From a bacterium (GTDB taxonomy: Bacteria > Patescibacteriota > Patescibacteriia > JACPHY01), in NCBI GenBank assembly GCA_030647005.1, contig JAUSKG010000033.1, forward strand, positions 1-50,584: DNA of 50,584 bases, in the 5' to 3' direction. Positions 15,298 to 46,191 of this stretch are shown in pieces (positions within the stretch are counted from its first letter, which is position 1; each line of letters opens with the position of its first letter). Position numbers and translations under genes: made by a program. Under the pieces are notes generated by a model. The model saw only the letters and a program-made list of their open reading frames with translations, was not told where the DNA came from and ran no database searches.

Positions 15298-15314
15298 AGG
15301 CGAACTCCAAGCCG

Positions 15315-16445: not shown

Positions 16446-16497
16446 GCAGGTGCATTCCACCTATTCATGCTGCCTATCATCGCATGGAAACAGCGGC

Positions 16498-20063: not shown

Positions 20064-22109
20064 TCATGGAATCGGAATAGCGAGCGTCTGCTCGCGGCCA
20101 AGGATGGGATTCCCGAACGGGAGTTCCACGACGAGGTGACGGAAGACATCGCGCTCCTGCAAACCATTCTGCGCGAACAGCTCTCGCGTACCAAACGCAC
20201 GGAGCGTTCCGTTCTCGACCATCGCACGCGTGCCAGTGGCAGGATGCTCCCAGAGGTAGCCCGACGGGAACTCACCCGGACCCACCTGCGTGCCAGAGGT
20301 ATAGGTGGCAAAAAATGCATCCGGCACATCAACGACACGCGATGCCCACGCGGTACCGTAGCGTGCGATAGCCATCTCCTCCGTCGGCACCCACCGGAGC
20401 ACACCGCCCCGCTCCACCGTGTACACTTTGGGGTCGGTCTGAATCTTCACGAGGAACGTCCCGGGTCGAATCGTCACCAGCCCGCCGAGCGGGAAGGCCG
20501 CGAGGACGCTGTCGTCCACGCGCAGGACACTACTGGTGTCCGCGTACCACGAGTCAAATGTCTGGCGATCCGGGAACGCGTACCGTTTCCCGCGTGCGTC
20601 CACGACGTACACCGAACTCGTGGAACCCTTGAGGAGCGACCCGATACCGATCCCCGCAGCGCCGCCACTGGCTACCACGACACGCCCCGTCGCAACCGTG
20701 AGGTCACCGATGAGCGCGTGGAGCTCCGCAATGCCCTCCTGCTGCGCCCGGATGGAGAACGATGCGATGCCGGTTGCGTCCGTGAGCGCAGTGGTGGGCG
20801 CGATGAGATCGTCAATGCGATCTGAGAGGAGGCGCACGCTACGACCACCGAGTACCTGGCCGCTGTCGTTCTGCACCACCACGCGCACGATGACATCCTC
20901 GAGCACACCGACGATGGGCCTGCTGAACTCGATCGAGGAGTGCGTCATGCTCGGTGCCGCAGTTGCGCGTGCGAGCGCTTCGCGCACCGCGCGCGAGAGT
21001 TGGAGTCGTCCGGCACCCAACTTGCCCGTGAGCGCGCCGGGGACATTCGCAATCGGATCAGCGGCCTGCCGGAGGAGCGCGATGATGTCGAGCGGTGCGA
21101 GTGACGGAAGGAGGCCGCGCACGAGGGACGCAGCACCCGCGACAATTGGTGCGGCGTACGAGGTGCCGTTGAAGAAACCACCGTAGGGCTCTGAGAATGT
21201 TGTCTGCCCAATCCGATCACCCACCGCAATGGCGGTATGATCGGGATCGTGGAACCTCGTCCCGACGATGTGCGAACCCGGTGCGCTCAGATCAACGCAA
21301 TCGCCGTAGCTCGAGAACGTCGCCTTCTCATCCTGTTCGTTCGTCGCGGCGACGCCGAGCACGTACCCCTCACCATTGCCGGAGCAGATGGGGTAGGCAG
21401 GAAAGTCATCGAGGTTCCCGCGACCGCGCTGATCCTCGTTCCCACCCGCCGCAACGACGAGCACGCCATCGCGCGCAAGCTCGATGATGAGCGCGTCGAG
21501 TTCCACGGAACGCTCGGTGCCAACGAAACTCAAGTTGACGATCGATGCGCCCTGCTCGTGCGCGTACCGGAGCGCAGCGAGGACATCGTTCAGATCGCCC
21601 ACGCCATCCGAGCGGAGTACGCGCAACGGCATGATCTTCGCGAGCCAATCAATCCCCGCGATCCCCTGCCCGTTATTCCCGCGCGCGGCGATGATGCCCG
21701 CGACGACCGTCCCGTGGTGGAGATCATTCGGGTTTGATCCCGCGACATCGTACGCGGGCGTGGGATCGTTATCGTTGCCGACGAAATCCCAACCGTTCAC
21801 ATCATCCACATACCCGTTGCGATCATCGTCCACGCCGTTGCCTGGAATCTCGCCGAGATTCTGCCACATCGCGCTCGCGAGATCCGGATGATCGAGGTCA
21901 ACCCCCACATCGAGTACCGCGATGATGGACGCGGGGTTCCCAATCGTCACCTCCCACGCGTCCTTCGCCGCAATGGCGTCAAGGTACCACTGCTCGCCCA
22001 AGAGCGAATCGGATGGCGAAAGCGCATATGCGGGAAACGCGAACGCGAACACGACCAACGCCACCAACGCATGGAATATGCACCGCGTATTGGTGCTGCA
22101 GTACGTCAT
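20064..22109 (-). CDS. Exported S8 subtilase with C-terminal surface repeat domain
   Basis: A 681-residue secreted serine protease. A signal peptide (about residues 1-30, ending PAYA) is followed by the S8 domain with a full active site: Asp67 in AVLDVGVD, His132 in HHGTVVAGI, Asn224 in AAGGNED and Ser317 in GTSYAAP. DDDRNGYVDDVNGWD resembles a Ca-binding insert. A beta domain (about 400-480) precedes the C-terminal module (491-660), which has three repeat units and is shared with the two giant proteins: VYVVDARGKRYAFPD, KVYTVERGGVLRWV and a weaker third unit. It may mature or trim surface proteins that share the module. ATG 22109 is preferred over a TTG at 22139. It is the last gene of a three-gene exported unit. 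Confidence 0.92.
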   Translation of the reverse strand: MTYCSTNTRCIFHALVALVVFAFAFPAYALSPSDSLLGEQWYLDAIAAKDAWEVTIGNPASIIAVLDVGVDLDHPDLASAMWQNLGEIPGNGVDDDRNGYVDDVNGWDFVGNDNDPTPAYDVAGSNPNDLHHGTVVAGIIAARGNNGQGIAGIDWLAKIMPLRVLRSDGVGDLNDVLAALRYAHEQGASIVNLSFVGTERSVELDALIIELARDGVLVVAAGGNEDQRGRGNLDDFPAYPICSGNGEGYVLGVAATNEQDEKATFSSYGDCVDLSAPGSHIVGTRFHDPDHTAIAVGDRIGQTTFSEPYGGFFNGTSYAAPIVAGAASLVRGLLPSLAPLDIIALLRQAADPIANVPGALTGKLGAGRLQLSRAVREALARATAAPSMTHSSIEFSRPIVGVLEDVIVRVVVQNDSGQVLGGRSVRLLSDRIDDLIAPTTALTDATGIASFSIRAQQEGIAELHALIGDLTVATGRVVVASGGAAGIGIGSLLKGSTSSVYVVDARGKRYAFPDRQTFDSWYADTSSVLRVDDSVLAAFPLGGLVTIRPGTFLVKIQTDPKVYTVERGGVLRWVPTEEMAIARYGTAWASRVVDVPDAFFATYTSGTQVGPGEFPSGYLWEHPATGTRAMVENGTLRAFGTRELFAQNGLQERDVFRHLVVELPFGNPILGREQTLAIPIP

Positions 22110-22124
22110 GAGACAGTGCTCGAA

Positions 22125-22150
22125 AATCTCCAATCTCAAATCTCAAATCT
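22125..22150. repeat. Heptad tandem repeat AATCTCA
   Basis: About 3.7 head-to-tail copies of a 7-nt unit (AATCTCC, AATCTCA, AATCTCA, AATCT) lie between the TPR gene stop and the subtilase start. The length of this gap could vary by slippage. Confidence 0.7.
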
Positions 22151-27300: not shown

Positions 27301-28036
27301 CACCGCCGGTCTTGAGAACCTTGAGGCCCGTCACCGTGCCGGTACCAACGAGCTTCAGCTTGAGCACCGGCGCGTCAGCCGCGCGCGGCGCAAGCGTGCC
27401 GCCACCCGCTTCCGCGAGAGACGCGGAGAGGACGGTCGGGCCAACCACCACCGGCGGTGTCACCGCCGTGGAACCGGCGATGCCCTTGTCCACACCGATG
27501 CTCGTTGCCGCCGCCATCTGCGCCGCCTTGTCGAAGTCCGATGCCGCATTGACCGCCGCACCAATCGTGTAGTTCACGAAGAATGCGTCCGGAACGTCAT
27601 GGACCATGGAGGCCCAGGATGCGCCGTAGATCGCGACTGCAACGGCTTCCGTTGCAACGTGACGGAGCGTTCCGCCTGCTGCCACCGCGTACACCTTGGG
27701 GTCCGTGGTGATCTTCACCATCTGGACACCTGGCTTGTACGTTGCGTTTCCACCGATCGAGATCGCTGCGAGTTCAGCATCGGTGACCGACTGGACACCG
27801 GAGAAGCTCGCGTACCAGGTCTTGTACGTTGGCTCATTCGGGAACACGTAACGCTTCCCATCAGCCGCGTAGTAGTACACGGCCGGGAGAGAACCCTTGA
27901 TGAGCGTTCCCGCTGCTGGCGCCGCGCTCGCGACGAGCGGAGCGATGAGGAGCGAGAGGCCCATGGACCACGCGATCGTCGTGATAACGACGGACCACGT
28001 GAGCGTGCGCTTCCCGAGTGCGATTGCACTGTGCAT
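24329..28036 (-). CDS. Large S-layer-like surface protein with N-terminal repeat domain
   Basis: A 1,235-residue exported protein. The signal peptide spans about 1-38 (RTLTWSVVITTIAWSMGLSL, cleavage near ASA). The mature N-terminus (43-160) holds two units of the module shared with the subtilase and giant adhesin: VYYYAADGKRYVFPNEPTY and KVYAVAAGGTLRHVATE. After it come tandem beta domains; three near residues 500, 660 and 830 restart in the same style (for example GTLKVELAADRAVSGPIVAG). The composition is rich in Ala, Thr, Gly and Val and poor in Cys and Lys, as in S-layer proteins. The ATG at 28036 is chosen for the signal peptide; the nearest GGAG is 17 nt upstream, unusually far. It may be the main lattice protein, which is inference. 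Confidence 0.8.
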   Translation of the reverse strand: MHSAIALGKRTLTWSVVITTIAWSMGLSLLIAPLVASAAPAAGTLIKGSLPAVYYYAADGKRYVFPNEPTYKTWYASFSGVQSVTDAELAAISIGGNATYKPGVQMVKITTDPKVYAVAAGGTLRHVATEAVAVAIYGASWASMVHDVPDAFFVNYTIGAAVNAASDFDKAAQMAAATSIGVDKGIAGSTAVTPPVVVGPTVLSASLAEAGGGTLAPRAADAPVLKLKLVGTGTVTGLKVLKTGGEADANITGVKLYDGTTQLGTTQTLNASAQASFTGISIAVSGEKTITIAADIGANAGSSFTFEVNKAADITLSSGSVGGTFPLKGGTMTADANHAAVGTAVLYRGANMPTSDQNIDPDEQGFRFTQVRVEAGSAEDLVVKQIVAIQSGTVSTSDVKDIKLVLEETGATLAESATLPANGRVVFDGLSMTIPKGESRNFSVKASITGGSASNRTVGFDLHDGNAYTIRVVGAKYGFGITPTRNDFCATAGVTGGACQAQTVAQGTLRLDRASSSPATGNVAQGSTGVPLLVVSFTVTGEEVRITSQNWDFTFADDFVCTELTSVTLYDSKGAVAAGPKDCATNTITFTDTMTVPVGTNAYTLKANVASTAGNDGDGTADTVVATLDVSEFTAKGVQSGKVSTVQTTTDVAGNTLTVNAAALAATTLATPIAGNVIAGVQDYGFAKFTLDASAGGEDARIASIQVADATGAAALPGDLVNFELWGDADTSDSTDTMVRISTTNSTAAATYTANTAGIDSTLTFTFQSPLRLSKTKSATYEVRADILATAATGATATHVVDVAAVTATGYTTSSAITMTDGTQITGAGQAQTVAASGTLKVELAADRAVSGPIVAGSKGVSMTKYKLTAADEDVDVTQLPVFIANQAEAAGNLANVDTFKLYLNGTLIGNQAGYTFGSDGEKNVVLDSGVLRVVKDSPMYLEIKASFNAKEQVTSGSVLHFGIGDDDGDASSWAAAASATVGYNIVATGKDSGATIDQNDIDSSGVDGNTAGTIDGGYEMGVFDGVLAVGLDANSPSGVHTPGTGKEVFRMWATATGDEITVFDLEFINSGSAQGGDTNQVTGTGSAFLYNTDRSVTYADWLTANVTQPMDAGTGGIHVNGLESTTDDAGLDGGSSDGWDTALIIGAGETRVLLLVGDTTGAGGASSSKSLQTSINDGTATASGVQWMDVQLSGLNGTSCTAATTDLATANECVVDSATYTKTLPVNGNGLTYN

Positions 28037-33000: not shown

Positions 33001-36000
33001 AGTTCGAGAACCTCGCGGTGACTGGACAAACCCTGAGTGTGACGATTGCGTCCGGCGCAACGCTCAACGGCGAGGTCGTTGATCTCTTCTGCCATGCCGG
33101 CACCTTCGATAGCGAATTCTCGCGCCCCGTCATGAAGACCGTCACACTCGACTCTGCGGGAGCAGGTACCACAACGCTCAAGCTCAAGGGCGGCAAGACG
33201 TACGAGTGCGGCATTGGTCCGCACATTGACTTCAGCAACTTCACGAGCGGCCCTCCGCCGGTTCCGGACTTCGCGTTCATGCCGCCACCGCCCACCCGAG
33301 TCGTCGTCCCGACGAGCAGTGACCCCTCCGCGATCACCTTCACGCTCGATGTCGCATCGAACACCATCAGCGGGACGGTACAGGATGGATCGGCAACCGG
33401 CATTGCGAACGTGTACGTCAATGCGTTCCCGCTCGGCTGCTTCGACAGCAACGGCGCATTCAAGCAGTGCAACGGCGGATTCGCACAGAGTAAATCCGAC
33501 GGAACGTTCACGCTCAATGTCTCCGGTGGAACGTACGAGGTGCGCGCGTTCTCACCGGGTATGCCGGAGTCCGAGCCACAGATTCTCACGGTGACTACTG
33601 CGAGCCTCACCGGCGTCATCATCAAACTCCAGAAGTCCGCGACGACGATCGCGGGGCAGGTGCTCGATGAGTCCGGCAACGAGATCCAGTACGCAGGCGT
33701 GGATGCGGAGCGCATCACCGCTGGCGGATCATGCTCGTCCTTCACCCCGAACGGCGGACACTCGTTCAGCCCGACCAACTCGAGCGGCAACTACACGCTC
33801 TACGTGAGCAACGGCACTTGGAACGTCCGGGCACACGCACCGTCCTACGGCCAAGTGGGCTGTACGACCGTCGTCGTCTCCGGAACATCGCTCACCGGCA
33901 AGAACCTCCAGGCAACCGCGGGCGACTTCAAGACCGTCAGCGGAACCTGCCCATCGGGCGCGTTCATCGGCGCGTTCGGCACGAACGGCGGGAACCATGG
34001 TGCGTGCTCGGAGGGCGCGTACTCGATCAAGGTGCCCGCCGGAACCGGCTACACCGTCGAGTGCTTCGCGAACGGCAAGGGTCACTGCGGGAGGAGCACG
34101 AGCGTGGACACCTCGAGCGCAAACCAGACCGTGAACTTTGGGACATCGGTGACCACCGGTACGCTCCAGATCACGATCACCGGCATCACCGATGCGTTCG
34201 TGGATGTACGCGACTCGAGCGGACTGGGGAACGGCACCGGCCAGAACAGTGCCGGCGTGTACACGCTCACCATCCCGCCGGGGACGTACACCGTGCGCGG
34301 TGGCTCACCAAAGTACGGCGACCTCTGCAGCGATCAGTCCGCGATCGTCACCGCGAATACCACGACCGCGATCACGTGTACGCCACCGGCAAACCTCCGG
34401 ACGGTCGCTGGTCGCGTGACGGATGGTTCAACGAACCTCGCCGGCGCGTCCATCACTGTCACCTCCACGACGAGCGGCAAGATGTTCAACACGCGGACGG
34501 GATCGCAGACCAGCACGAACAGCAACCTCTCGCTCACGAATGTTCCAGATGGCAGCTACACGATCCGCGCATCAAAGAGCGGATACGGATCCGCAAGCGC
34601 GAACGCGATCGTGAGCGGCGGAAACCTCACGCTCAGTGAAAATATCGCGCTCACGCAGGCGACCGGTTCGGCCGGTGACACCGTCATCGTCAGCGTCCGC
34701 GATGACAGCGACGTGGACTACAACGGCAACGCGCGCGTGACGGCGACGAACGCGAGCGGCAATGTCATCGTCGCGGAGATGGATAAAACGACGAGCGATG
34801 CTTCGCTCTCGCTCACGAACGGGACATGGACCGTCACCACGATCGGCGACAACGGGAAGAAGACGACTTCGTCAACGACCGTCACCGTGACGAACGGAAC
34901 GGCAAGCACCGCGGCGTTCAATGCAGACCTCGACACCGCCGTGAGCGGCTTCACGCCGGTGAGCAACAACGTGAACTTCACGCCAACGGCTGGAGGACTC
35001 ATGAAGTCCGAGGACATCATCGGACTCTCGATCAACGCACCGATGAACGCGTTCTCCACGACCGACAGCTCCACGGCGACGATGCAGATATCGAAGGACC
35101 CGACGGTCGCGGGCATCGACCCGGGCGGCACGTCGAACTTCGTCGGGAGCAGTGGATTCACTATCAGCCCGACGGACGCGAATGGAAAGGAGCTCTCCGA
35201 CCTCAGCAGCAACGTGACGATCACGATCCCATTCAGCGCGAGCGACCTCTCGGCAGCGAGCGTCAGCGACGAAGGCACGCTCCTCCTCGCGGCGATTGAC
35301 GCGAACGGAGAGTGGGAGACGTTCTCGACAACGGTGGATGAGGTGAACAATCTCCTGACGGCAGAGATCTCACACTTCTCCACGTTCGGCATCGTTGGCT
35401 CCACGAGTGGTGGCGGATCGCCGACCTCGAGCGATGTGCAAGCACCCGGCGCCGTGATGAACGTCACCTCGAGCGCGAGTGCGAACAGCGTGACGCTCTC
35501 ATGGACTGATCCCGCAGACACCGATCTCGCGGAGATCGAGATTCTGCGCAACACACCACCGTCAACCGCGGTTGCCGCAACGGCAATCGCACGCGTTGCC
35601 AAGGGCGTCAAGACATTCGTGGACACCGCGCTCACCTCGGCGACCAAGTACTTCTACATCCTGCGATCGAAGGATACGAGTGGGAACACGCGAAACTCGG
35701 ATACGATCAGCATCACGACCGCGGCGACGAGTACCGCCGCGCCGACAACGGGAACGACGACACCTGCGCCAACGACCGATGGTGGGGGGAGTGGGACCGC
35801 CGCGACAACGACCGCACCATCCGCAACGCCTGGCGCAACGAGCATCGGTCTCAACGCCGGCGACATCGTGAAGGCGACATCCTCAAACGCGGTGTACCTC
35901 GTTGGCGCGAACGGGAAACGCTATGTATACCCGAACGAGCTCACGTTCAAGTCCTGGCACAAGGACTTCAGCAAGGTGAAGCACATCTCCAATGCGGACA

Positions 36001-36431
36001 TGGCGACACTCCAGCTCGGAGGATTCGTCACCGTGCGCCCGGGAACGTGGCTCGTGAAGATTGAGTCCGATCCCAAGGTCTACGCCGTGGAGCCCGGGAG
36101 CGCGCTCCGCTGGGTGGAGACCGAGCAGCGCGCACAGACGCTGTACGGAACGAGCTGGAACAAGAAGATCGTTGACGTGCCGGTCTCGTTCTGGGTGGGC
36201 TATACGCAGGGCAACCCGCTGGGTGCGGACGTCCATCCGACCGGAACGATCGTATCCTCCGCAGGGGCACGGTACTACATTGATGGCGGGGTGAAGCGAC
36301 TCGTCACAAACGATGTCTTCAGCGCCCTCGGCTACCAGGACCATTTCGTCCACGCCCTCGATGCGACGGTCGTCTACGGCGACGGATCGGCTCTCACGTC
36401 CACGGCAACGGTCACCTTCGCACGTGAGTAA
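30039..36431 (+). CDS. Giant adhesin/S-layer-like multidomain surface protein
   Basis: A 2,130-residue exported protein. The signal peptide (to about 60; SLTLAATTIIWALGIPLGVL, then ANAAA) resembles that of the S-layer-like protein. It has SbsA-type Ig-like domains (from about 340 and 470: SVPLNTAIAFVF, GATGVDPAVTGSLRISFSEN) and carboxypeptidase-regulatory-like beta domains (near 880, 1108, 1201, 1451: ISGTVQDGSATGIANVYVN). A long beta region leads to a fibronectin type III-like domain (about 1801-1898), a Thr/Pro/Gly linker, and a C-terminal three-unit repeat module (1941-2127; VYLVGANGKRYVYPNE, KVYAVEPGSALRWVETE, ARYYIDGGVKRLVTND). The module is shared with the subtilase and the S-layer-like protein. 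GGGGAGG 8 nt upstream supports the start. A terminator follows. Confidence 0.85.
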   Translation: MFGLKCMSNAFITQLASRAGRRARTTARRGLSLTLAATTIIWALGIPLGVLIPQPANAAALTVATVMPSTPATAATGVTYTVKLTTPSGASSNIRSVGVNFLDAVPTFPGVGNYTTCSLTVGGTAVPGVGCLNTGSLAYVALTADDNAPTVTIAASTPMVWTFGPVTNPAGAGPATATVFTDDTGNSQNIGGSIIDEKALTLRYGTAPTLTGGGPGNGQSFVPLEATIDINIASGSLLTSGDASPSTATVTVNKCTGATDALTCASPETNVNRCSTVTVGNGLGTNDRITCAASLETSTTYKLTVDGTVQGSTNIPLGASVSRIFRTGSVDSGTNTTSPRVLTTVPGPGTQSVPLNTAIAFVFPTGPEGDMLANGTANAVDNVDNIRLRPTTNGVLGTDVCTTANSCTGTWDGASRTLRVNGVTLIASTTYDFCLAANVLNAQSRSMTADACYSFTTGTTSDTTAPTLATADPLKPANGATGVDPAVTGSLRISFSENIRPDTVTTTTFGLCNDTDGNGDSNCDTLEKIATTAYNVSTDPSGRDLNVSLNAALTASKRYCYFIGTGIRDLAGNAIAADITNKCFTTGSATAVSAPTLQYCDADSFGFVCGFDQPMAVSGLISSNNVNTSNVALQCPTGVPISLASKAATWDAEFRELRVMGVGLQPGQDCRVTVTNAAGFTGTAISTTNSANVANFTVLDATTTGGTLGFSGSADTNFYSDTDFGSYWVNPQRCEPRVRITGKNTILECEFPAPASLPASSTFTLTFPSGFTYTDSSSNAIRAVPAATSFVNADINGPAAAGAPTIASVTCNTVANTCTVTTGTATIASGDRIFFELDRLQTPTTAVTDKKISVIVKDNSGIKKGETINPSPFSIQSAGAYAISGTACKSSVGGGTCNIPGGDTAIASAKVFCQQQGGYLEGSTAGVFAGSQETTTDANGDWTVSGLSNGQYGCGMPPDPTTTADVGSGESFKQLTINGASSSDVDFKFENLAVTGQTLSVTIASGATLNGEVVDLFCHAGTFDSEFSRPVMKTVTLDSAGAGTTTLKLKGGKTYECGIGPHIDFSNFTSGPPPVPDFAFMPPPPTRVVVPTSSDPSAITFTLDVASNTISGTVQDGSATGIANVYVNAFPLGCFDSNGAFKQCNGGFAQSKSDGTFTLNVSGGTYEVRAFSPGMPESEPQILTVTTASLTGVIIKLQKSATTIAGQVLDESGNEIQYAGVDAERITAGGSCSSFTPNGGHSFSPTNSSGNYTLYVSNGTWNVRAHAPSYGQVGCTTVVVSGTSLTGKNLQATAGDFKTVSGTCPSGAFIGAFGTNGGNHGACSEGAYSIKVPAGTGYTVECFANGKGHCGRSTSVDTSSANQTVNFGTSVTTGTLQITITGITDAFVDVRDSSGLGNGTGQNSAGVYTLTIPPGTYTVRGGSPKYGDLCSDQSAIVTANTTTAITCTPPANLRTVAGRVTDGSTNLAGASITVTSTTSGKMFNTRTGSQTSTNSNLSLTNVPDGSYTIRASKSGYGSASANAIVSGGNLTLSENIALTQATGSAGDTVIVSVRDDSDVDYNGNARVTATNASGNVIVAEMDKTTSDASLSLTNGTWTVTTIGDNGKKTTSSTTVTVTNGTASTAAFNADLDTAVSGFTPVSNNVNFTPTAGGLMKSEDIIGLSINAPMNAFSTTDSSTATMQISKDPTVAGIDPGGTSNFVGSSGFTISPTDANGKELSDLSSNVTITIPFSASDLSAASVSDEGTLLLAAIDANGEWETFSTTVDEVNNLLTAEISHFSTFGIVGSTSGGGSPTSSDVQAPGAVMNVTSSASANSVTLSWTDPADTDLAEIEILRNTPPSTAVAATAIARVAKGVKTFVDTALTSATKYFYILRSKDTSGNTRNSDTISITTAATSTAAPTTGTTTPAPTTDGGGSGTAATTTAPSATPGATSIGLNAGDIVKATSSNAVYLVGANGKRYVYPNELTFKSWHKDFSKVKHISNADMATLQLGGFVTVRPGTWLVKIESDPKVYAVEPGSALRWVETEQRAQTLYGTSWNKKIVDVPVSFWVGYTQGNPLGADVHPTGTIVSSAGARYYIDGGVKRLVTNDVFSALGYQDHFVHALDATVVYGDGSALTSTATVTFARE

Positions 36432-37121: not shown

Positions 37122-38336
37122 TCACACCGCGGAGCGGACGAGACGCGGGGAGAGCGCGTGTACGCGAGCGTACCGATTGACAGTATGCGCGCGGTACCGT
37201 TCCGCTGTACACACGGCAATGCGATCCCAGTGGTAGTGTCGGAGCACCGCGCGCTGCGCATCTCCACCGATGCGGGCGAGGTGCGCAGCACCCGAGAGCG
37301 CAACTTCGAGTTTGCAGAGGAGATCCCACATGTTGCCGGTCTCAAAGAGCATCCCGCCGATCCGCGCAATAACCTCGCGGTGCTCAGGGATATCCGAGAC
37401 GATTGGCATCGTTCCGGCCGCAGCCGCCTCGAGCACGGCGAGCGGGAGACCCTCGGAACGCGATGCGTGCACAAATGCGAGCGCGTTCGCGAAGAGTGCT
37501 TCCAGCATGAGACCGGACCGCTGCCCGAGGAACAGCACCGCGGGGTCACCCGACGCTGCAACGCGGAGCTCCTCCTCGTACTGCTCGGTGAACGTCGGCG
37601 ATCCGGCAATGACGAGCTGGATGCCACCGAGGTCTGGCCGCTCGCGACGGAGCTGCCGGAATGCACGAATCACGGTGTGGATCTCCTTGTGTGCAACGAG
37701 CCGCGACGCGACAAAGAGGTAGCGCTTCGGGGTAATCCCATGCGACCGCAGCATATCCTGCGCCGCACGGGATCGCGCAGCGGGAGATGGCTCCGCGACG
37801 CCATTGGCAATGCACACCGGATGCGCACCGTAGCGCGCCGTGCAGTACGCCGTGAGTACCTCACCGACCGCGATGGTCTCGTGTGGGAAGGTGCACGCCG
37901 CCCACTCACCAATCGTGAGCATGGCGCGCGCGACGATGCCCCACTTCGCGTGCAGACGATCCACAGAATGGAACGTGACAAACACCGTGCTCCGCGGACG
38001 AAACACCCGCGGCATCCACGCAAGGAGTGCCGGACCAACGCCATGGAAATGGTAGACATCCGCCCGCTCGCGCATCGCATGGAGCGTGGCGAGGAACGTG
38101 TGTGAGATGGCATCGAGGTGCTTTGTGCGAACCGATTGGAGTACCACAACGCGAACACCGCGGTAGGTCCGCTCGGTCCCCGGATGCCGATCGAGGTACC
38201 ACGACCGGCCGTACACGGTCACGGAAAACCCACCCGCGACGAGGCGCTGGCTCAGTGCTTCGACGTGCCGCTCCACACCACCAATGGTGGCCGGCATGCC
38301 CTTTGTTCCGATCATAGCGACACGGATCCGTTCCAT
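37122..38336 (-). CDS. GT4 family glycosyltransferase (DUF1972-like N-terminus)
   Basis: A 404-residue GT-B glycosyltransferase. The start MERIRVAMIGTKGMPATIGG then VERHVEALS is the N-terminal pattern of the DUF1972/rhamnosyltransferase group of GT4 enzymes. YHFHGVGPALLAW and FVTFHSVDRLHAKWG follow, then the donor half with LFVASRLVAHKEIHTVIRAF and SEGLPLAVLEAAAAGTMPIV (E-x7-E). The ATG at 38336 is set by homology and by a promoter whose -10 ends 10 nt before it, which predicts an almost leaderless mRNA. The longer frame to 38639 is antisense text of the neighbouring gene. Confidence 0.9.
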   Translation of the reverse strand: MERIRVAMIGTKGMPATIGGVERHVEALSQRLVAGGFSVTVYGRSWYLDRHPGTERTYRGVRVVVLQSVRTKHLDAISHTFLATLHAMRERADVYHFHGVGPALLAWMPRVFRPRSTVFVTFHSVDRLHAKWGIVARAMLTIGEWAACTFPHETIAVGEVLTAYCTARYGAHPVCIANGVAEPSPAARSRAAQDMLRSHGITPKRYLFVASRLVAHKEIHTVIRAFRQLRRERPDLGGIQLVIAGSPTFTEQYEEELRVAASGDPAVLFLGQRSGLMLEALFANALAFVHASRSEGLPLAVLEAAAAGTMPIVSDIPEHREVIARIGGMLFETGNMWDLLCKLEVALSGAAHLARIGGDAQRAVLRHYHWDRIAVCTAERYRAHTVNRYARVHALSPRLVRSAV

Positions 38337-38345
38337 AGTGCCCGT

Positions 38346-38374
38346 ACCGTAGCACAGAAACGGATTCGTGTCAA
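38346..38374 (-). promoter_or_regulatory. Promoter of the GT4 gene at 37122
   Basis: On the minus strand: TTGACA, 14 nt, TGC, TACGGT. A perfect -35 with 17-bp spacing and an extended -10. The predicted transcription start is about 3 nt before the ATG. Confidence 0.7.
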
Positions 38375-38424
38375 TGGTGCATCTTTGGCGCTCCCGCGCC
38401 AGCTTCAGAGGGAATTCGGAGAGT

Positions 38425-40245
38425 TCACGGCAGCACCACTCCCCCACTCTCCCGTCCGCGCTGATCGAGCGTGAGGGCGGTGGTGACAGCATCGGCGGTG
38501 ACCGTCGTCTCGTTTCCCGCAACATCGCGAGAAGTCGCGCGGGTCTCCTCGAGGAGCCGCGGCGTGGTGCCCGCCATGGGTGCAGTCGGTGTGAGTGCGA
38601 CCTCGAATGACGCAGAAGATGATGGGAACTGCGTGCCAACGGTCTGCGCGAGTGCGGTGACGACCCACGTCACCTCGCGCGTGACGGGATCGAACGCAAC
38701 GTGGTCACCCGCTGTCGCGGCGACGCGCCCCGTCCACTCCACCCCATCGGCGAGTGCTGCGCGCACGACGACGCGCTCCGCATCCACCAGGAGCGAACGG
38801 ATGTCCCACGTCACCCAGTACCGCGTGGTCGCGCCCACGCGCGGTGGCAACGGCCCGCGCCCGATCTGATCACCCTCCGGCGTGTAGTACCGCGCGAACG
38901 CTGCGAGCCGGAGATTGCCCGCAACGCGAATGACGAGCGGTTCACCAAGAACAGACGCACGGGGCGATCCAATGGCAGCGGGGGTCAAATCCAGAACTGG
39001 CGTCACCGTGTAGGAGAAATCCGTCCCATCCGCGAAGGATGACGGGTCTATGCGATCGGGTGCCGTGAGCGTGAAGCGACAGGTGGCGAGATCAGACCGC
39101 AACGGACAGTACGCGGCGACACGACCTTCCACGTCACCACCGGTGAGCATGGAAAACTTTGCAAGCGGCCCAGAGACCTCGAGGCCAAACCGTTCACCCG
39201 ACACGTCGCCCTCGGGGTTGTGGTGGGAGACGGAGAGCTGTAGGGTATCACCGAGCGCGATGGTTCCAGGTCCCTCGATCAACGTGAGTGAGAGCGTCGC
39301 GGGCACGTGGACGACGCGGATGGAGCGATCCACCGTCGCCAGTCGGACACCGTTCCGCTCCACATGGATTCGCAGGGGGAATGTCCCAGCGCTCCCCGTC
39401 GCGACGACAACTTCCGCGCGCCCCGCACTCGAGGGCGTCGCATGGAGGATCGTCACACCGGTGACGACTTCCGGAACAACCGTCAGGATACCGAGATCAT
39501 GGGTACCATGCGATGTCGCGTGGATGACGAGCTGTGCTCGCCCATGGGTGGGGATTGTGGGCGGGGCGTTGAGCATCACCTCCGCAGCAATGCCGCGGAC
39601 GACGAGCCGCGTCGCGGAGGCGCGCCGCTCGGCTTGCCCAACGCCGCTCCCGTGGAACGTCACCTGGAGATCGAGCTCTGTCCCCTCCGGTGCATCGGTG
39701 TACGCCGTCAGTGCCACCTGCTGCGCCGCTCCCGGAGCGACACGGTGGTCGAGGCGCACGGTGCTCGTCACGGGATCGAACACCCCCGGCGTCACCGCGA
39801 CGAGATGAACGGCATCCGGAACCACGAACGCGAACGATGTTTCCGTGAGCTCCACATCGCCGTCGTAGGTCGCCGTCAGAGTCACCGTGAACTCCTCCCC
39901 CACGCGCACGCTCGATGGAACCTCCCACGCGAGGTCAATGTTGGAGAAAATATTCGGCCGAGCGATGAGCAACCACGCATTCACGGCGATGAGCGCGACG
40001 ATGCCCACCGCGAGTCCGATGTCGGCCACGAGGTGCCTGCGCCCGTGCTTGAGGCGCGGGTGGTAGTGTCGCTCGTACCGTCGCTCGGCGGGACGTTTCA
40101 CCGCGCGGCCGGCCCCCTGGACGCAGTTGATGCAGAGGTTCACCGTCTTCGCCATGATCGGCGGGAGACGGGTGGGACGCTTTGGCGGCTCGATCGGCTT
40201 CGGGCGAACCTCAATGATGTCGCGAGGGTCTGGCATAGGAATCAT
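38425..40245 (-). CDS. Membrane-anchored protein with long extracytoplasmic Ig-like region
   Basis: A 606-residue protein. A cytoplasmic segment of about 70 residues is Pro- and Arg-rich, with a C-x2-C pair in VNLCINCVQGAGRAVKRP. One membrane span (ADIGLAVGIVALIAVNAWLLI) follows. The remaining 500 residues are beta-rich, with at least four Ig-like stretches, among them SSVRVGEEFTVTLTATYDGD, GTIALGDTLQLSVSHHNPEG and GATTRYWVTWDIRSLLVDAE. It resembles conserved-repeat (DUF11-like) adhesin stalks. The start overlaps the stop of the hydrolase gene by 4 nt, so the two proteins are probably made in step and may interact at the surface. No catalytic motif seen. Confidence 0.75.
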   Translation of the reverse strand: MIPMPDPRDIIEVRPKPIEPPKRPTRLPPIMAKTVNLCINCVQGAGRAVKRPAERRYERHYHPRLKHGRRHLVADIGLAVGIVALIAVNAWLLIARPNIFSNIDLAWEVPSSVRVGEEFTVTLTATYDGDVELTETSFAFVVPDAVHLVAVTPGVFDPVTSTVRLDHRVAPGAAQQVALTAYTDAPEGTELDLQVTFHGSGVGQAERRASATRLVVRGIAAEVMLNAPPTIPTHGRAQLVIHATSHGTHDLGILTVVPEVVTGVTILHATPSSAGRAEVVVATGSAGTFPLRIHVERNGVRLATVDRSIRVVHVPATLSLTLIEGPGTIALGDTLQLSVSHHNPEGDVSGERFGLEVSGPLAKFSMLTGGDVEGRVAAYCPLRSDLATCRFTLTAPDRIDPSSFADGTDFSYTVTPVLDLTPAAIGSPRASVLGEPLVIRVAGNLRLAAFARYYTPEGDQIGRGPLPPRVGATTRYWVTWDIRSLLVDAERVVVRAALADGVEWTGRVAATAGDHVAFDPVTREVTWVVTALAQTVGTQFPSSSASFEVALTPTAPMAGTTPRLLEETRATSRDVAGNETTVTADAVTTALTLDQRGRESGGVVLP

Positions 40246-42341
40246 GGTTGCTGTGCAACGGTGAAGACGTGTGTTGACATACCGAGGATCTCATCTCGTC
40301 CATCGCCATCGAGATCGGCCGCAGCAACATCAACACCGCCGCGGCGATCTGCGTCGAAAGCGAAGAACTGAACCTGGAGTACTCCGGAGAGCGCGTCGAA
40401 CACGCGCACGTGCGGCCCGCCACCCGGACCCGCACCGGTAATGATCTCATCGTCTCCATCGCGGTCCACGTCACCGGCAGCCACGCGCACGCCGCCACGG
40501 AACCCTGCGGTGTACGCGAGGAACGACGCACCGGTCGGACGGCCGGACCAATCGAGGATGCGCACCTCTGGACGGATACCCGCACCCGCACCAACGACGA
40601 TGATGGGCCGTGAGAGCCGATCGCGACGCGCTGTCGCGACGGTCATACCGCTCCGTGCCTGCGCGCCGAACGGTGCAAGGTACGGCGTGAGGAGTCGCCC
40701 CTCGAGGAGATTGAAGATACCAACACGCGCTCCACGATCGCGCTCTGTAACGACGATCTCCCACGTGCGGTTGTCATCGAGGTCATCGATCGCAAAATCG
40801 AGTCCATCGGTGTACACCTCGCCGAACGGTGCGAACTCCCGCACCGTGCGTCCCTGAGAGGCGATGCGGATCCGCCCGCCCTCCGCGGTAATGGTCTCGC
40901 GCGCGCCATCGCCATCGAGGTCGCGGTGCTCCACCGTGGCACTCCCCGCCGCGGTGGCATCGTAGGCGAAGAAACCGTTGCGCACCACCCGCCCCGCGTG
41001 ATCGAAGACGCGCGCGAACGCGCCGTTGGCGAACGGCGCACCGGTGATGCCGATAATCGGCCGGAGGAGCACCGTGCCATCGTGCGGCGCGAGCGTGAGC
41101 GATTGAATGATCTCACCGGAGTTCACCGCGGGATCCTGTTCGCCCCGCAGCCGCTCGAATTCTTCATCGAACGCAACGGTGAACGGCTCCGCAGTCGCAT
41201 TCACGAGCACGATGCCATGGGCGTACTCGCGCCGGTACACGCCTGTCGGGAACGCTGGATCGAATGCACCGCCCGCATCAATGCGGAACGGCTTTCCCAC
41301 GGGATCACCGAGGAACGCTTCGTACTCATCGTACCACCATCGCTGCGCGTGATCCTGGTCGCCGAAGTCGAAGCTCGCGTACCCGCCGCCGAGGAGGGCG
41401 GATGTAAGACCGAAACGCATGAGGCGAAAGTTCTGCCAGACGCCGGTGTTGCCGGTGTTCGTGTTCACCATCGCGAAAACCGGCGCGGTGCCGCGCTCGA
41501 CGATCGCGAAAAGCGCGCGCATGGACGCGGACCAGTCGCCCTCGTTCGTGTTGGGAAAGTGCTCGAGGAGGAGCCCATTCACGAGGTCGGCGTAGGTAGA
41601 GCTCCCGTTCCCCGTGATGAGAAAATCCTCGGGGACGCGCGCGCGCGTCGCGGTGAGGAGCCGACGGGTACCATCCACCCACGCGCGATCGCGCTGCGCC
41701 GCAGTCGCGCCGCTGCCAGCACCGGCGAGCGCCAACTCCCCGCGATCGAGCCAGCTGATGGACCCCCAGAGGTTGTCGTAGTACACACCGTCCCACCGCG
41801 CGTCCGTGGCGATCTCCTCGGCGACGAACGTCGCGAGCGCATCGGTCCATGCGGGATCCGTGATGTCGAGGAGCCACGTCTGCGGCCACCAGGAGATGCG
41901 GTCGCCCACGGCGGAAGTGAGGTACCACGCGTCCGCAATGCGCGCGGCGAGATCGCGCCGGAGTGCCGCTTGCGGATGTGCCGCAGCGTCGCGTCGAATC
42001 TCCTGCGCCGTCACATACGCGAAGAGTTTCGCCTCGGGATTCGTGCGACGGAGGAGGTCAAACGCCACCGGCGTGTTCCGTGCAACCTCCATGTCGAGCA
42101 CGATGACATCCCACCGTGCGAGGTCCCGTGCCTCCTCCTCCGAGAGGTGCCACGCGAGGAAGAGGTTCGCGAGCCGCGGGTACTGGTGCGGCTTGCGCTG
42201 AGCACCAACCGGTAGCGAGAGCAATCCCACGGCGAGGAGAAGGACAGCAAACCACGACGCGATGGTGCGTCGCGAGCTGCGCTCACCGTGCGAGGTCGCG
42301 GTAGAGCGCGGAGAGTCGTTCGTAGTGCCGTGTTGGTCCAT
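40242..42341 (-). CDS. Exported glycoside-hydrolase-like protein (GHL15-like) with FG-GAP repeats
   Basis: A protein of about 699 residues. After a signal peptide (TIASWFAVLLLAVGLLSLPV then GAQ) comes a TIM-barrel-like domain resembling the putative glycosyl hydrolase GHL15: YPRLANLFLAWHLSEEEARD, WDVIVLDMEVARNTPVAFDL and WDGVYYDNLWGS, whose acidic residues are candidate catalytic sites. From about residue 480 there are FG-GAP/VCBS repeats with Ca-binding loops (DLDGDGARE, DVDRDGDDE, DLDGDGRDE) typical of beta-propeller surface proteins. It may trim or bind extracellular glycan. The 5' end overlaps the GT4 gene by about 59 nt; an ATG at 42350 is also possible. The stop is coupled to the Ig-like anchor gene. 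Confidence 0.8.
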   Translation of the reverse strand: MDQHGTTNDSPRSTATSHGERSSRRTIASWFAVLLLAVGLLSLPVGAQRKPHQYPRLANLFLAWHLSEEEARDLARWDVIVLDMEVARNTPVAFDLLRRTNPEAKLFAYVTAQEIRRDAAAHPQAALRRDLAARIADAWYLTSAVGDRISWWPQTWLLDITDPAWTDALATFVAEEIATDARWDGVYYDNLWGSISWLDRGELALAGAGSGATAAQRDRAWVDGTRRLLTATRARVPEDFLITGNGSSTYADLVNGLLLEHFPNTNEGDWSASMRALFAIVERGTAPVFAMVNTNTGNTGVWQNFRLMRFGLTSALLGGGYASFDFGDQDHAQRWWYDEYEAFLGDPVGKPFRIDAGGAFDPAFPTGVYRREYAHGIVLVNATAEPFTVAFDEEFERLRGEQDPAVNSGEIIQSLTLAPHDGTVLLRPIIGITGAPFANGAFARVFDHAGRVVRNGFFAYDATAAGSATVEHRDLDGDGARETITAEGGRIRIASQGRTVREFAPFGEVYTDGLDFAIDDLDDNRTWEIVVTERDRGARVGIFNLLEGRLLTPYLAPFGAQARSGMTVATARRDRLSRPIIVVGAGAGIRPEVRILDWSGRPTGASFLAYTAGFRGGVRVAAGDVDRDGDDEIITGAGPGGGPHVRVFDALSGVLQVQFFAFDADRRGGVDVAAADLDGDGRDEILGMSTHVFTVAQQP

Positions 42342-43512
42342 AGTCCTCACTGATCACACGGAGCGCCGCGGTGCGGTACGCCGCTCGCGTCATCGGATCA
42401 CCGTACACCTTCGCGATCGTCTTGGCAAGCGTCGCGGGATCGCGGGGCGGCACGAGTACTCCCGTCTCACCGTCGCGCACGAGCTCGGGCAAACCTCCGA
42501 TGTTCGCGGCAATCACGGGAACACCGGCTGCCATGGCCTCGAGGATGCTGTAGGGTGCGTTCTCGTACCACCGCGACGGCACGCAGAGCAGCGTCGCGCG
42601 CGCGAGCTCCGTGGCCACCTCGTGTCGCTCGAGCTGACCCAACCACCGGAGATTCTGAATCTGTGCCGCTCGTGTTTTTACCGATGTACCGAGCGGTCCG
42701 TCCCCGATCACCACAAAGGGGACACCCGGGAGACGCGCCGCCGCATCAATGAAATCCTCAATCCCCTTCTCCTCCGTCAGCCGCCCGAGGAAGAGTACCG
42801 CTCCGCGGTCGCCCGGGCTCCACCCTTCGCTGTCGGTCTCTGGGATCACGAAGTTGGGAATCACCTCCGCTCGCCCCTCCCACCCCCATGCGTCAAGCTG
42901 CTCCGCCATGAACCGACTTGGTGCGACCACCGCGGAGAGGTGCTTGCCGTACACGTCGAGCACGGTGTGGTGGAGCGTCATTTCGAGTGCGACCGCAGCC
43001 GACGCGCCAAGCGAACCCATGCAGTTGAACCGCACCGCGTTCCAATACTTTCCGCCCTGACATCGCTCACACGGTGATCCTTTCGTGTACATGCGATAGT
43101 TCGGACACATCGCCTTGTAGTCGTGGAGCGTCCACACCGTAGGAATCCCGCGCTTCGTGCACTCTGGCAAAATGGACGGCGAAATCTGATGCGCGAAATT
43201 CTGGAGATGCACGATGTCCGGCTTGGCTGCATCGAGGAGCGCGCCAAAGCGTTTCGCGGCATCCTTACTCCAGAGCACGCGCGAGAGCTTCTCGAGTGCG
43301 CCGGTTTGATTGGGCAGCGCATCCTCCGCCTCCCAGAAGTCCACGTGGGGCATGAAGTGCTCCGACCACGCAGTAGGCCAGTTGCGCTCATCCTCCATCG
43401 CGAACGGGATGACCTCATGCCCGTTCCGCTCGAGGAGGTCCTTGAGGAGAAACGTGTACCGTTCGCTCCCGCCTTTCGGGAACCAGAACTTATTGACGAG
43501 GACGATCCGCAT
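42283..43512 (-). CDS. GT4 family glycosyltransferase with Cys cluster
   Basis: A 409-residue GT-B glycosyltransferase. The opening MRIVLVNKFWFPKGGSERYT is the acceptor-side Gly loop; FLGRLTEEKGIEDFIDAA and ENAPYSILEAMAAGVPVIAA (E-x7-E) mark the donor half. A cluster of cysteines, MCPNYRMYTKGSPCERCQGG then FNCMGS, is characteristic of a GT4 subgroup and might bind metal or be structural. A TATACT box preceded by GCGC lies about 9 nt upstream of the ATG, so the transcript may be leaderless. The sugar is unknown. Confidence 0.9.
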   Translation of the reverse strand: MRIVLVNKFWFPKGGSERYTFLLKDLLERNGHEVIPFAMEDERNWPTAWSEHFMPHVDFWEAEDALPNQTGALEKLSRVLWSKDAAKRFGALLDAAKPDIVHLQNFAHQISPSILPECTKRGIPTVWTLHDYKAMCPNYRMYTKGSPCERCQGGKYWNAVRFNCMGSLGASAAVALEMTLHHTVLDVYGKHLSAVVAPSRFMAEQLDAWGWEGRAEVIPNFVIPETDSEGWSPGDRGAVLFLGRLTEEKGIEDFIDAAARLPGVPFVVIGDGPLGTSVKTRAAQIQNLRWLGQLERHEVATELARATLLCVPSRWYENAPYSILEAMAAGVPVIAANIGGLPELVRDGETGVLVPPRDPATLAKTIAKVYGDPMTRAAYRTAALRVISEDYGPTRHYERLSALYRDLAR

Positions 43513-43571
43513 ACATCATTAGTATAGCGCACGCCGCCCCATGCGTCGTTCGCAATGCAGGAGGTGAGACC

Positions 43572-44654
43572 TCACCGCTCGCGCAGGAGCGATGCGTAGA
43601 GTTCCTCATACCGTTCCACGACCCGCTCGATGGTGAACGTGCGTTCGACGTGGCGACGGCCAGCGTGGCCGAGGAACATGCGACGCGGCCGGTCGTCCGC
43701 GAGATCGCGAATGGCATCGGCGAGTGCTTTGGGGTCTTCGGGAGGAACGAGGATGCCCGTCTCCCCATCCACGATCGCTTCGCGGAGGCCACCGACGCCG
43801 GATGCGATGACGGGGATGCCGCACGCGGATGCCTCGATCGCCGCAATGCCAAACCCCTCCCATCGCGATGGCAGGACGAGGATATCTGCGCGCTGGTAGT
43901 GGACGGGGAGGTCGCGCTGCATGCCGAGGAAGCGCACGCGATCGGTGATGCGGAACGTGCGAGCAAGTGCTTCGAGCTCATGACGTTGCGAGCCGTCACC
44001 GACAATTGTGAGGTGCATGCGCGGGGAAGCATCGCGGAGGAGCACGAACGCCTCGAGGAGCACGTCATGCCCCTTCTGCGGCACGAGCCGCCCGACGCTC
44101 AGGAGTCGCGCGCCATCGCGCGGTCGCTCGGCGACGGGATGGAACCGCTTCGTGTCAACGCCGTTCGGGATGATGACGAACCGCTCGAGCGGAATGCGAT
44201 CCACGCGGACGCTGTGCGCGCGTACCGCATCGGAGACCGCGATGATGCGATCGGTCCGCTGCGCGAGCCGACGCTTCACCATGCGCTTCACCGGCCCCTC
44301 ATCGAGATTGACGTTATGCTCCGTGGACACCACATGCGGAACGCCCGCGCGGAATGCCGCGATGCGCCCCCACGTGTCGCCACCAAAGAGGTGCGTGTGC
44401 ACGATGTGTGGTGTAGGGGTCCGGAGGTCGGCGGTGAGGTGGCGGATCGCCTCGAGACCGATCGTCGTCCGCTTGCCCACGACATCCGTCGGGATGCCCG
44501 CCTCATGGAACTCCGCACGGAGCGGCCCACCGCGCACGACCGCGATCACCCGCACATCGAACCGCTTCCGATCCAAACGACGCACGATGTCGAGCACGAG
44601 CTGCTCGGCACCACCGATGTCGAACGACGTGAGGATGTGGACGAGGCGGATCAT
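43572..44654 (-). CDS. GT4 family glycosyltransferase
   Basis: A 360-residue GT-B glycosyltransferase. MIRLVHILTSFDIGGAEQLV gives the N-terminal Gly loop, HTHLFGGDTWGRIAAF the middle, and LLSVGRLVPQKGHDVLLEAF and WEGFGIAAIEASACGIPVIA (E-x7-E) the donor-binding half. These match the lipopolysaccharide/capsule GT4 group. The ATG at 44654 begins the domain; the frame can be extended 10 codons into a repeat. A TCATTGCGAGG inverted repeat separates it from the ligase-like gene upstream, so the two may be separate transcripts. Confidence 0.9.
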   Translation of the reverse strand: MIRLVHILTSFDIGGAEQLVLDIVRRLDRKRFDVRVIAVVRGGPLRAEFHEAGIPTDVVGKRTTIGLEAIRHLTADLRTPTPHIVHTHLFGGDTWGRIAAFRAGVPHVVSTEHNVNLDEGPVKRMVKRRLAQRTDRIIAVSDAVRAHSVRVDRIPLERFVIIPNGVDTKRFHPVAERPRDGARLLSVGRLVPQKGHDVLLEAFVLLRDASPRMHLTIVGDGSQRHELEALARTFRITDRVRFLGMQRDLPVHYQRADILVLPSRWEGFGIAAIEASACGIPVIASGVGGLREAIVDGETGILVPPEDPKALADAIRDLADDRPRRMFLGHAGRRHVERTFTIERVVERYEELYASLLRER

Positions 44655-44679
44655 AGCGGTAAACTGCAAGCCGAGAAGT

Positions 44680-44800
44680 GTCATTGCGAGCCGAGTCCAC
44701 GAGGCGTGGCAATCCCGGTCATCCAGGGTACCCAGCTCTCACCTTGTGCCGATATGGCCGGGATTGCCACGTCACTCGCGGACTCACTCCTCGCAATGAC
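44680..44800. repeat. Complete TCATTGCGAGG inverted repeat
   Basis: GTCATTGCGAGCCGAGTCC and GGCAATCCCGGTCATC on the left, GGCCGGGATTGCC and CTCCTCGCAATGAC on the right, about 120 nt in all. It has the same arms as the copies at 12869 and 23841. Confidence 0.85.
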
Positions 44801-44820: not shown

Positions 44821-46191
44821 CTACGCACGGAGCGCACTCCGCTGCTGCGCGAGACGAGCGGCGACGACGGCGATGCCGATGGGGAGCCAGAGCTTGGAGA
44901 CAAAGTAGCTCGTATTGAAGAGCTGGAAGACGATGGACCCGCCCGCGCTCGCGAGGAGCGCGAGGAGGATGAGCCGCCACTGCGGCGCGACGGTCGCGGC
45001 GCGGTACGCGCGGAGGACGTACGCGAGGAGCGCGACGAGGAGCCAGATAAAGGTGACGAGTCCCAGGATTCCGGTCTCCGCGAGGAGCTTCTGCACCAAC
45101 CCATGGGCCTCCTGCGGCTCACCAAAATCCGCGATGTACCACCGGTCGCGGGAGACGACCTCCTGGAACGTTCCAACCCCTCCCCCCACGATCGGGTGCT
45201 CCGCGAACTGCGCGAGCGCGATGCGCGTGAGCTGGATGCGGTTCGTGTTTGAGCTCTGCGCGACCGTCGTGAGCGAGAAGAGCCCGATGGCGAGCATCGC
45301 GGCTGCGAGGACGGGCACCGCATACCCCGCGATCCGCTTCCAGTACATGCCGCGCGCGCGAGCGAACGCAACGAGGAGCACGACACCCTCGACGGTGAGC
45401 GTGAGCCAGCCGTTGCGCGAGAACGTGAGGAGCGTGACGAGCGCGAGGAGCACCGTCCCCACGACGTACCACCGCTGCACCATGCCGCGCGCGAACACCG
45501 CGAGAAGCACGCCGATGGGTACAACGCTCACGAGGACCTCCGCGATGAGGTTGTGGTTCGTCCCGAGCGGTGTCATCCCGTAGATGATGATCGGCACCGC
45601 ACGCCGGAACACGCCGGGCGTAGGTGGGAAGACGAGTGACCACACCCCCATCGCCGCAGCGAGGAGTCCCACGACGAACATCACGCGCAGCGTGGTGAAG
45701 AGGCGGTGCGGACGGTCAATAATGACGAGCGGCAGCACGATGAACATGAGGTAGAAGAACGACACGGGACGCACGAGGAACTTGACGCCGAGCAGGATGT
45801 CCTCCGTATTCGTGAGCGAGAGTGCCGCAGCACCGAGGAAGCAGAGGAACGGCACGATACCGGGCAGTGCACCGATGCTCGGACGCTCGCCGTTTTGCAC
45901 AAACCGCACGAGGAATCGCACGATGATTGCGATGGTGACAAGCAGCGCGAACGCATCCACGTATGGAATGTTTACGGTGCGACCGACGAAGAGCTGGAGG
46001 TAGATGAACGGGTAGCTGAGGACGACGAGGCACCACCCGAACATCGGTCGCACGGCGAAGAGCGCGATGGCCGCAACGAGCACGAATGCGCCCGCGACGA
46101 GCGGCGACGCGCCGATTACCACCGCAGCAACCCCCGCGAGGAATGCGGGGGTTGCGAGCTGCTTCCATGTGCTAGGTGTGTGCAGTGCCAT
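44821..46191 (-). CDS. O-antigen ligase/polymerase-like membrane protein (Wzy_C)
   Basis: A 456-residue polytopic protein with about 12 spans. The large periplasmic loop holds the Wzy_C-type block IVGGGVGTFQEVV, then AHGLVQKLLAETGILGLVTF, in the expected order and spacing before the last spans. FVLLSYPFIYLQ-like and TFSRNGWLTL segments also fit. Proteins of this family join a finished glycan to its carrier or polymerise units outside the membrane. It overlaps the end of the radical SAM gene by 20 nt. An internal promoter candidate (TTGGGT, 18 bp, TATACT) lies in the radical SAM gene near 46218. Confidence 0.85.
   Translation of the reverse strand: MALHTPSTWKQLATPAFLAGVAAVVIGASPLVAGAFVLVAAIALFAVRPMFGWCLVVLSYPFIYLQLFVGRTVNIPYVDAFALLVTIAIIVRFLVRFVQNGERPSIGALPGIVPFLCFLGAAALSLTNTEDILLGVKFLVRPVSFFYLMFIVLPLVIIDRPHRLFTTLRVMFVVGLLAAAMGVWSLVFPPTPGVFRRAVPIIIYGMTPLGTNHNLIAEVLVSVVPIGVLLAVFARGMVQRWYVVGTVLLALVTLLTFSRNGWLTLTVEGVVLLVAFARARGMYWKRIAGYAVPVLAAAMLAIGLFSLTTVAQSSNTNRIQLTRIALAQFAEHPIVGGGVGTFQEVVSRDRWYIADFGEPQEAHGLVQKLLAETGILGLVTFIWLLVALLAYVLRAYRAATVAPQWRLILLALLASAGGSIVFQLFNTSYFVSKLWLPIGIAVVAARLAQQRSALRA

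Follow-up and report, generated by a model that had tools for sequence, protein, structure and literature searches.

A conserved three-unit module with EccB-type repeats, a candidate cell-wall anchor of exported patescibacterial proteins

Introduction

Contig JAUSKG010000033.1 of the patescibacterial genome assembly GCA_030647005.1, analysed here over 50,584 bp (the window), encodes a giant adhesin, a subtilase and an S-layer-like protein, all of which are exported and share a terminal repeat module. What is this module for, and to what is it related? In the original prediction, made from the DNA sequence alone, it was suggested to be an undescribed surface-attachment module with the logic of SLH domains and without their sequence. 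We find that the module is real, conserved and terminal and is unnamed in the databases and open-licence full texts searched; an earlier description elsewhere is possible. Predicted fold and remote profile similarity give good support for homology between its units and the periplasmic repeats of the type VII secretion component EccB. The module probably serves as a non-covalent cell-wall anchor, following the logic of SLH and CWB2 anchors with EccB-type repeats.

Module architecture and predicted fold

Following translation and searches with hidden Markov models (HMMs) of the single units, the module was located in all three window proteins where it had been predicted (Table 1), with three HMM matches in each of the two C-terminal copies (adhesin and subtilase), again as predicted. 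These HMMs were built partly from the very window copies on which they were tested; shuffled proteins, used as a control, gave zero matches. In the S-layer-like protein the HMMs found no third unit. This two-unit copy is an exception, as all three units are present in 68 of 70 related N-terminal copies and in 10/10 C-terminal copies. The three copies first recognized are joined by two on other contigs of the genome (1.06 Mb, 35 contigs), for a total of five. One of the additional copies is C-terminal in an exported 519 aa protein and the other N-terminal in an exported 601 aa protein. The adhesin copy shares 42% and 47% identity with the other two window copies and 42-54% with all other copies in the genome. 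A protein of the same genome with a C-terminal module (L006:511-2070) also contains four repeats around the motif W[SG]ENVGW near its N-terminus.

The units are ~60 residues in length. Comparison of the unit profiles with hhalign shows them to be homologous, with the same register kept almost from end to end (unit 1 versus unit 3: 95%, E-value: 2.7e-8; unit 2 versus unit 3: 82%, E-value: 1e-5; unit 1 versus unit 2: 47%, E-value: 2e-4). The AlphaFold2 model of the module, built from 71 sequences, has a mean pLDDT of 93.8 and contains three equivalent units, the third slightly reduced, which agrees with the idea that they repeat a single fold. Each unit is predicted to be beta-rich, with the order strand-strand-strand-helix-strand-helix-strand (E-E-E-H-E-H-E), and one unit modelled alone gave a pLDDT of 92.3. 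A basic residue recurs at one position of every unit, where the third strand begins: R27 in 71/71 copies, R/H90 in 62/71 and R153 in 63/71 (numbering of the adhesin module).

No Pfam or NCBIfam family covers the module, in keeping with the original prediction of an undescribed module. The SLH Pfam profile did not match the window copies even at E < 10, and SLH was not among the 25 families listed for the 71 copies. The unit model differs from the three-helix-core fold of SLH, and no SLH domain was among the fold matches listed. Pfam CWB2, whose units are ~100 residues in length, did not match the module either. Three other candidates were rejected. Weak phmmer matches to designed Pizza beta-propellers (E-value: 1.9) gain no support from the predicted fold; PDB profile matches to antibodies reflect chance similarity around the motif AVYY; and weak Pfam matches to AstE_AspA_hybrid, NdhS and Lactococcin (best E-value: ~1e-3) have no fold support.

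Placement, export and distribution

In all of 80 sampled related proteins the module is terminal, N-terminal in 70 and C-terminal in 10. A strongly hydrophobic segment lies near the start of 64 of 69 proteins with an N-terminal copy, compared with 220/1360 (16%) of random internal stretches. The expectation of terminal modules on exported proteins is thereby borne out, and there are 2-14 such exported proteins per genome. In a survey of six genomes and 80 contigs, the partners of C-terminal modules included Peptidase_M23, subtilase, trypsin-like, SH3_3 and Ig-like adhesin (Big_1/Invasin_D3) domains. Among the partners of N-terminal modules are a beta-helix and S-layer-like proteins of 1150-1400 aa.

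Of the 32 further genomes sampled from the class, 31 contain the module (up to 14 matches per genome); in other Patescibacteria it was matched, mostly weakly, in about 50 of 347 genomes. All but one of 80 named related loci are labelled as Patescibacteria or as unclassified metagenome-assembled genomes (MAGs), many of the genome's nearest named relatives being Uhrbacteria; the Patescibacteria-type distribution suggested in the original prediction thus holds. A scan of 199 genomes of another phylum gave two finds, a two-unit protein and a 4.7 kb contig of a Halanaerobium MAG (L054) with a single copy of the full three-unit module. The latter is probably a misbinned patescibacterial contig. The two-unit protein (L160:1255-2814) is exported, 519 aa in length and carries its units directly behind its signal peptide, and the same architecture therefore occurs outside Patescibacteria. 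The module was not found in the plasmid records or in the viral contigs scanned.

SLH was found in 0/57 class genomes, while positive controls were matched, and sortase was found neither in this genome nor in 40 of the 57. SLH proteins are present in Absconditicoccaceae, another patescibacterial family (PMC13059738).

Relationship to EccB and to a phage protein

When the whole module was compared with the PDB using Foldseek, the ten best matches were EccB proteins of ESX-1, -3 and -5 (probability up to 0.96, E-value: 1.4e-3). TM-scores were low (0.24-0.26) because the units are packed differently. For a single unit the ten best matches were again EccB, with probability up to 1.00, TM-score up to 0.71, an rmsd of 2.2 Å and 24% identity; the E-values were poor because the query was short. 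Direct hhalign comparison of module units with single EccB repeats from plasmids of soil actinobacteria reached no more than a marginal level (best P-value: 5e-4), and bridging proteins were therefore sought.

A second relative is the actinophage family PHROG 9616, the best viral fold match of the module. With a threshold of E ≤ 0.1 it was matched by 53 of 71 module copies (best E-value: 1.9e-7; window adhesin copy: 5.2e-4). Its second unit aligns with module unit 3 (96.5%, E-value: 7.4e-10), and at the level of profile comparison the module units are homologous to it. These proteins of Streptomyces and Rhodococcus phages are ~115-148 aa in length with two units, and differ from the module in being free-standing. 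The gene lies directly after that of a minor tail protein or after a large unnamed gene, and the protein may be involved in recognition of the actinobacterial wall. The family (L110:2483-2836, L123-L129) follows tail genes and is annotated as hypothetical in 134 records of such phages. When module and phage units were merged, the profile aligned with EccB R1/R2/R4 at 93.4% (E-value: 2.5e-7) and a score of 34.3, whereas none of 40 column shuffles scored above 11.8; the merged sets were picked by the analyst, and other merges containing module units gave 3e-6 to 2.7e-3.

A bridge is provided by sister proteins with about four EccB-type units each. The units of a four-unit sister protein match EccB R1 (89-95%, E-value: 5.5e-8 to 2.1e-6), module units 1 and 3 (95-98.7%) and the phage unit (up to 99.0%, E-value: 4.5e-18). 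The EccB family PF05108 was matched directly by 6 of 19 sister proteins (best E-value: 1e-5); L154 matched it over the R1 region at 1.1e-4, short of Pfam's cut-off. PF05108 had no match in the genome studied here, a weak negative, as control genomes gave none either. An exported sister protein of ~470 aa (L161-L180) with four EccB-type units is present in about 51 of 57 class genomes, including this one (C25:21650-22435). Its first domain, which has no Pfam name, contains an invariant Glu in a QREQSL-like motif and may be lysozyme-like; the protein could be a peptidoglycan enzyme specific to the group. In another sister protein (L149), the units are internal and accompanied by a Peptidase_S11 D-Ala-D-Ala carboxypeptidase domain. 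The original prediction had no family name to offer. That stands insofar as the module is uncurated, but the unit is not an orphan, being related to EccB repeats and to the actinophage protein.

The likeness to EccB R1-R4 (PF05108) comprises the unit fold, a full-length profile alignment via the sister proteins and a location on the outer side of the membrane. The module proteins differ in lacking the EccB transmembrane helix and core domain, in having three tandem units at a protein end where EccB has four repeats around its core, and in the packing between units.

Proposed function

SLH and CWB2 anchors each consist of three tandem repeats and occur on S-layer proteins, adhesins and enzymes, and their conserved arginines have been linked to anionic wall polymers (PMC6081394, PMC4973711). 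CWB2 repeats are found at either protein end, and the Clostridium difficile CWB2 genes adjoin a locus proposed to make the wall ligand (PMC4973711). The module resembles SLH (PF00395) in its three tandem units of ~55-60 residues, its N- or C-terminal position on S-layer proteins and exoenzymes, and its conserved basic residue, and differs in fold and in lacking a Pfam SLH match. It resembles clostridial CWB2 (PF04122) in its three tandem copies at either end of S-layer, adhesin and protease proteins and in the adjoining candidate wall-polymer locus, and differs in unit length. The likening to SLH thus remains apt: these are terminal tandem units on exported proteins of a class in which SLH was not detected.

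We propose that three tandem EccB-type units at one end of an exported protein would keep S-layer-like proteins, adhesins and enzymes that cleave the wall or proteins attached, on the outer side of the membrane, to peptidoglycan or a wall glycan, with R27, R/H90 and R153, one basic residue per unit, as the likely ligand contacts. That the module is such an anchor is probable, given its terminal placement, the export signals, the partner domains, the EccB fold and profile similarity, and the SLH and sortase negatives. EccB repeats have themselves been likened to the wall-binding PlyCB (PMC4769845). Furthermore, endolysin LysIME-EF1 (6IST) was the rank-11 single-unit fold match, and its R190, located in WFVIGG-x-R-IYLP, is a residue whose R190E substitution nearly abolished wall binding (PMC7098653). 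This stretch resembles VYLVGANGKR27YVYP of the module, both reading strand-turn-R-strand, and the conserved basic residue of each unit may thus match the arginine that the endolysin domain needs for wall binding. LysIME-EF1 shares weak fold similarity and the arginine motif with the module and is a likeness without established homology, being a separate phage lysin domain that acts as a tetramer of single units.

Several points weigh against the wall-anchor proposal. The sequence link to EccB is weak for the module's own units and required bridging sequences, and for the EccB repeats, too, wall binding is a proposal. The LysIME-EF1 match is weak (probability 0.33, TM-score 0.43), the correspondence of R190 and R27 is a motif comparison with residues quoted in the paper and not a superposition, and PlyCB was absent from the fold matches. 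Finally, subtilases and similar partners could equally be free exoenzymes.

A role in protein-protein assembly, in which the module would join proteins to one another or to the S-layer lattice and not to wall glycan, is unlikely. Protein-protein contacts would be in keeping with the EccB repeats, which pack against one another and against the core (PMC4769845), with the LysIME-EF1 binding domains, which assemble as tetramers (PMC7098653), and with the majority of the copies found, which are on the S-layer-like protein. However, the putative lattice protein itself bears the module, so an anchor beneath the lattice would still be needed, and an S-layer partner is hardly to be expected for sister units that accompany a peptidoglycan carboxypeptidase or occur in a phage tail-region protein.

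Adhesin-like partners, and phage relatives adjoining tail genes where host-wall recognition is expected, would also fit an outward-facing module for attachment to host or prey cells, as would be expected in an episymbiont. We consider this improbable: on the most widespread protein the tag directly follows the signal peptide, and it also occurs on trypsin-like, SH3 and M23 proteins, neither of which would be expected of a host-binding tag, and the module sequence is strongly conserved across the class. Highly improbable is a signalling role in secretion or sorting, comparable to that of the C-terminal domain in type IX substrates: although its position is strictly terminal, the module is used at both ends alongside a normal N-terminal export signal, is a confidently folded three-unit domain, and has sister units that are internal in the L149 protein.

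The wall-anchor proposal can be extended. The three-repeat module would then be the main surface-protein anchor of the whole class, putative S-layer included, replacing SLH and sortase, binding the glycan made by clusters like that of the window, and forming one wall-binding superfamily with EccB repeats and the actinophage tail-region protein. We regard this broader proposal as tentative and slightly doubtful.

Glycan synthesis genes in the window

The three module genes are surrounded by genes for glycan synthesis (Table 1). By analogy, we hypothesize that the product of this flanking cluster is a candidate ligand of the module. A GHL15-type glycoside hydrolase gene with an FG-GAP-like end (40242-42350, minus strand) adjoins the glycosyltransferase genes, and an 808 aa protein with MopE-type metal-binding motifs (PF11617, E-value: 4e-45) is encoded at 48151-50577 (minus strand).

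Table 1. Module proteins, module units and glycan synthesis genes of the window
Feature	Position	Strand	Description and evidence
Giant exported adhesin, 2130 aa	30039-36431	+	Signal peptide, Big_5 Ig-like and CarboxypepD_reg domains, C-terminal module; translation, Pfam
Adhesin module, three units	35853-36428	+	C-terminus
Adhesin unit 1	35853-36035	+	Residues 1939-1999; unit HMM E-value 1.2e-28; AlphaFold2
Adhesin unit 2	36030-36227	+	Residues 1998-2063; unit HMM E-value 5.8e-33; AlphaFold2
Adhesin unit 3	36234-36428	+	Residues 2066-2130, flush with C-terminus; unit HMM E-value 8.8e-21; AlphaFold2
Exported subtilase	20064-22139	-	Peptidase_S8 (E-value 6.3e-42), Big_1-like domain, C-terminal module; Pfam
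Subtilase module, three units	20073-20648	-	C-terminus
Subtilase unit 1	20469-20648	-	Residues 498-557; unit HMM E-value 2.4e-24
Subtilase unit 2	20277-20474	-	Residues 556-621; unit HMM E-value 3.9e-34
Subtilase unit 3	20073-20270	-	Residues 624-689, C-terminus; unit HMM E-value 1.2e-9
S-layer-like exported protein, 1255 aa	24329-28096	-	No Pfam domain; module right behind signal peptide; translation, Pfam
S-layer-like protein module, two units	27545-27916	-	N-terminal
S-layer-like protein unit 1	27737-27916	-	Residues 61-120; unit HMM E-value 1.9e-30
S-layer-like protein unit 2	27545-27742	-	Residues 119-184; unit HMM E-value 3.3e-33
Glycosyltransferases (GT2, GT4)	2302-3291, 13064-16460, 37122-38639, 42283-44684		Around the three module genes
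Sugar-nucleotide (NDP-sugar) epimerase/dehydratase	18820-19827		Near module genes
Wzy_C polymerase or ligase	44821-46191		Near module genes

Conclusions

With one conserved module shared by 2-14 exported proteins per genome, the attachment of surface layers and adhesins in Patescibacteria becomes a testable question, and there is a handle for listing the surface proteome of uncultured symbionts. The module also leads to the prediction that the EccB repeats of type VII secretion, for which peptidoglycan binding had earlier only been suggested, belong to a wall-binding superfamily. Through it, a large group of uncultured bacteria may keep hold of its surface coat.

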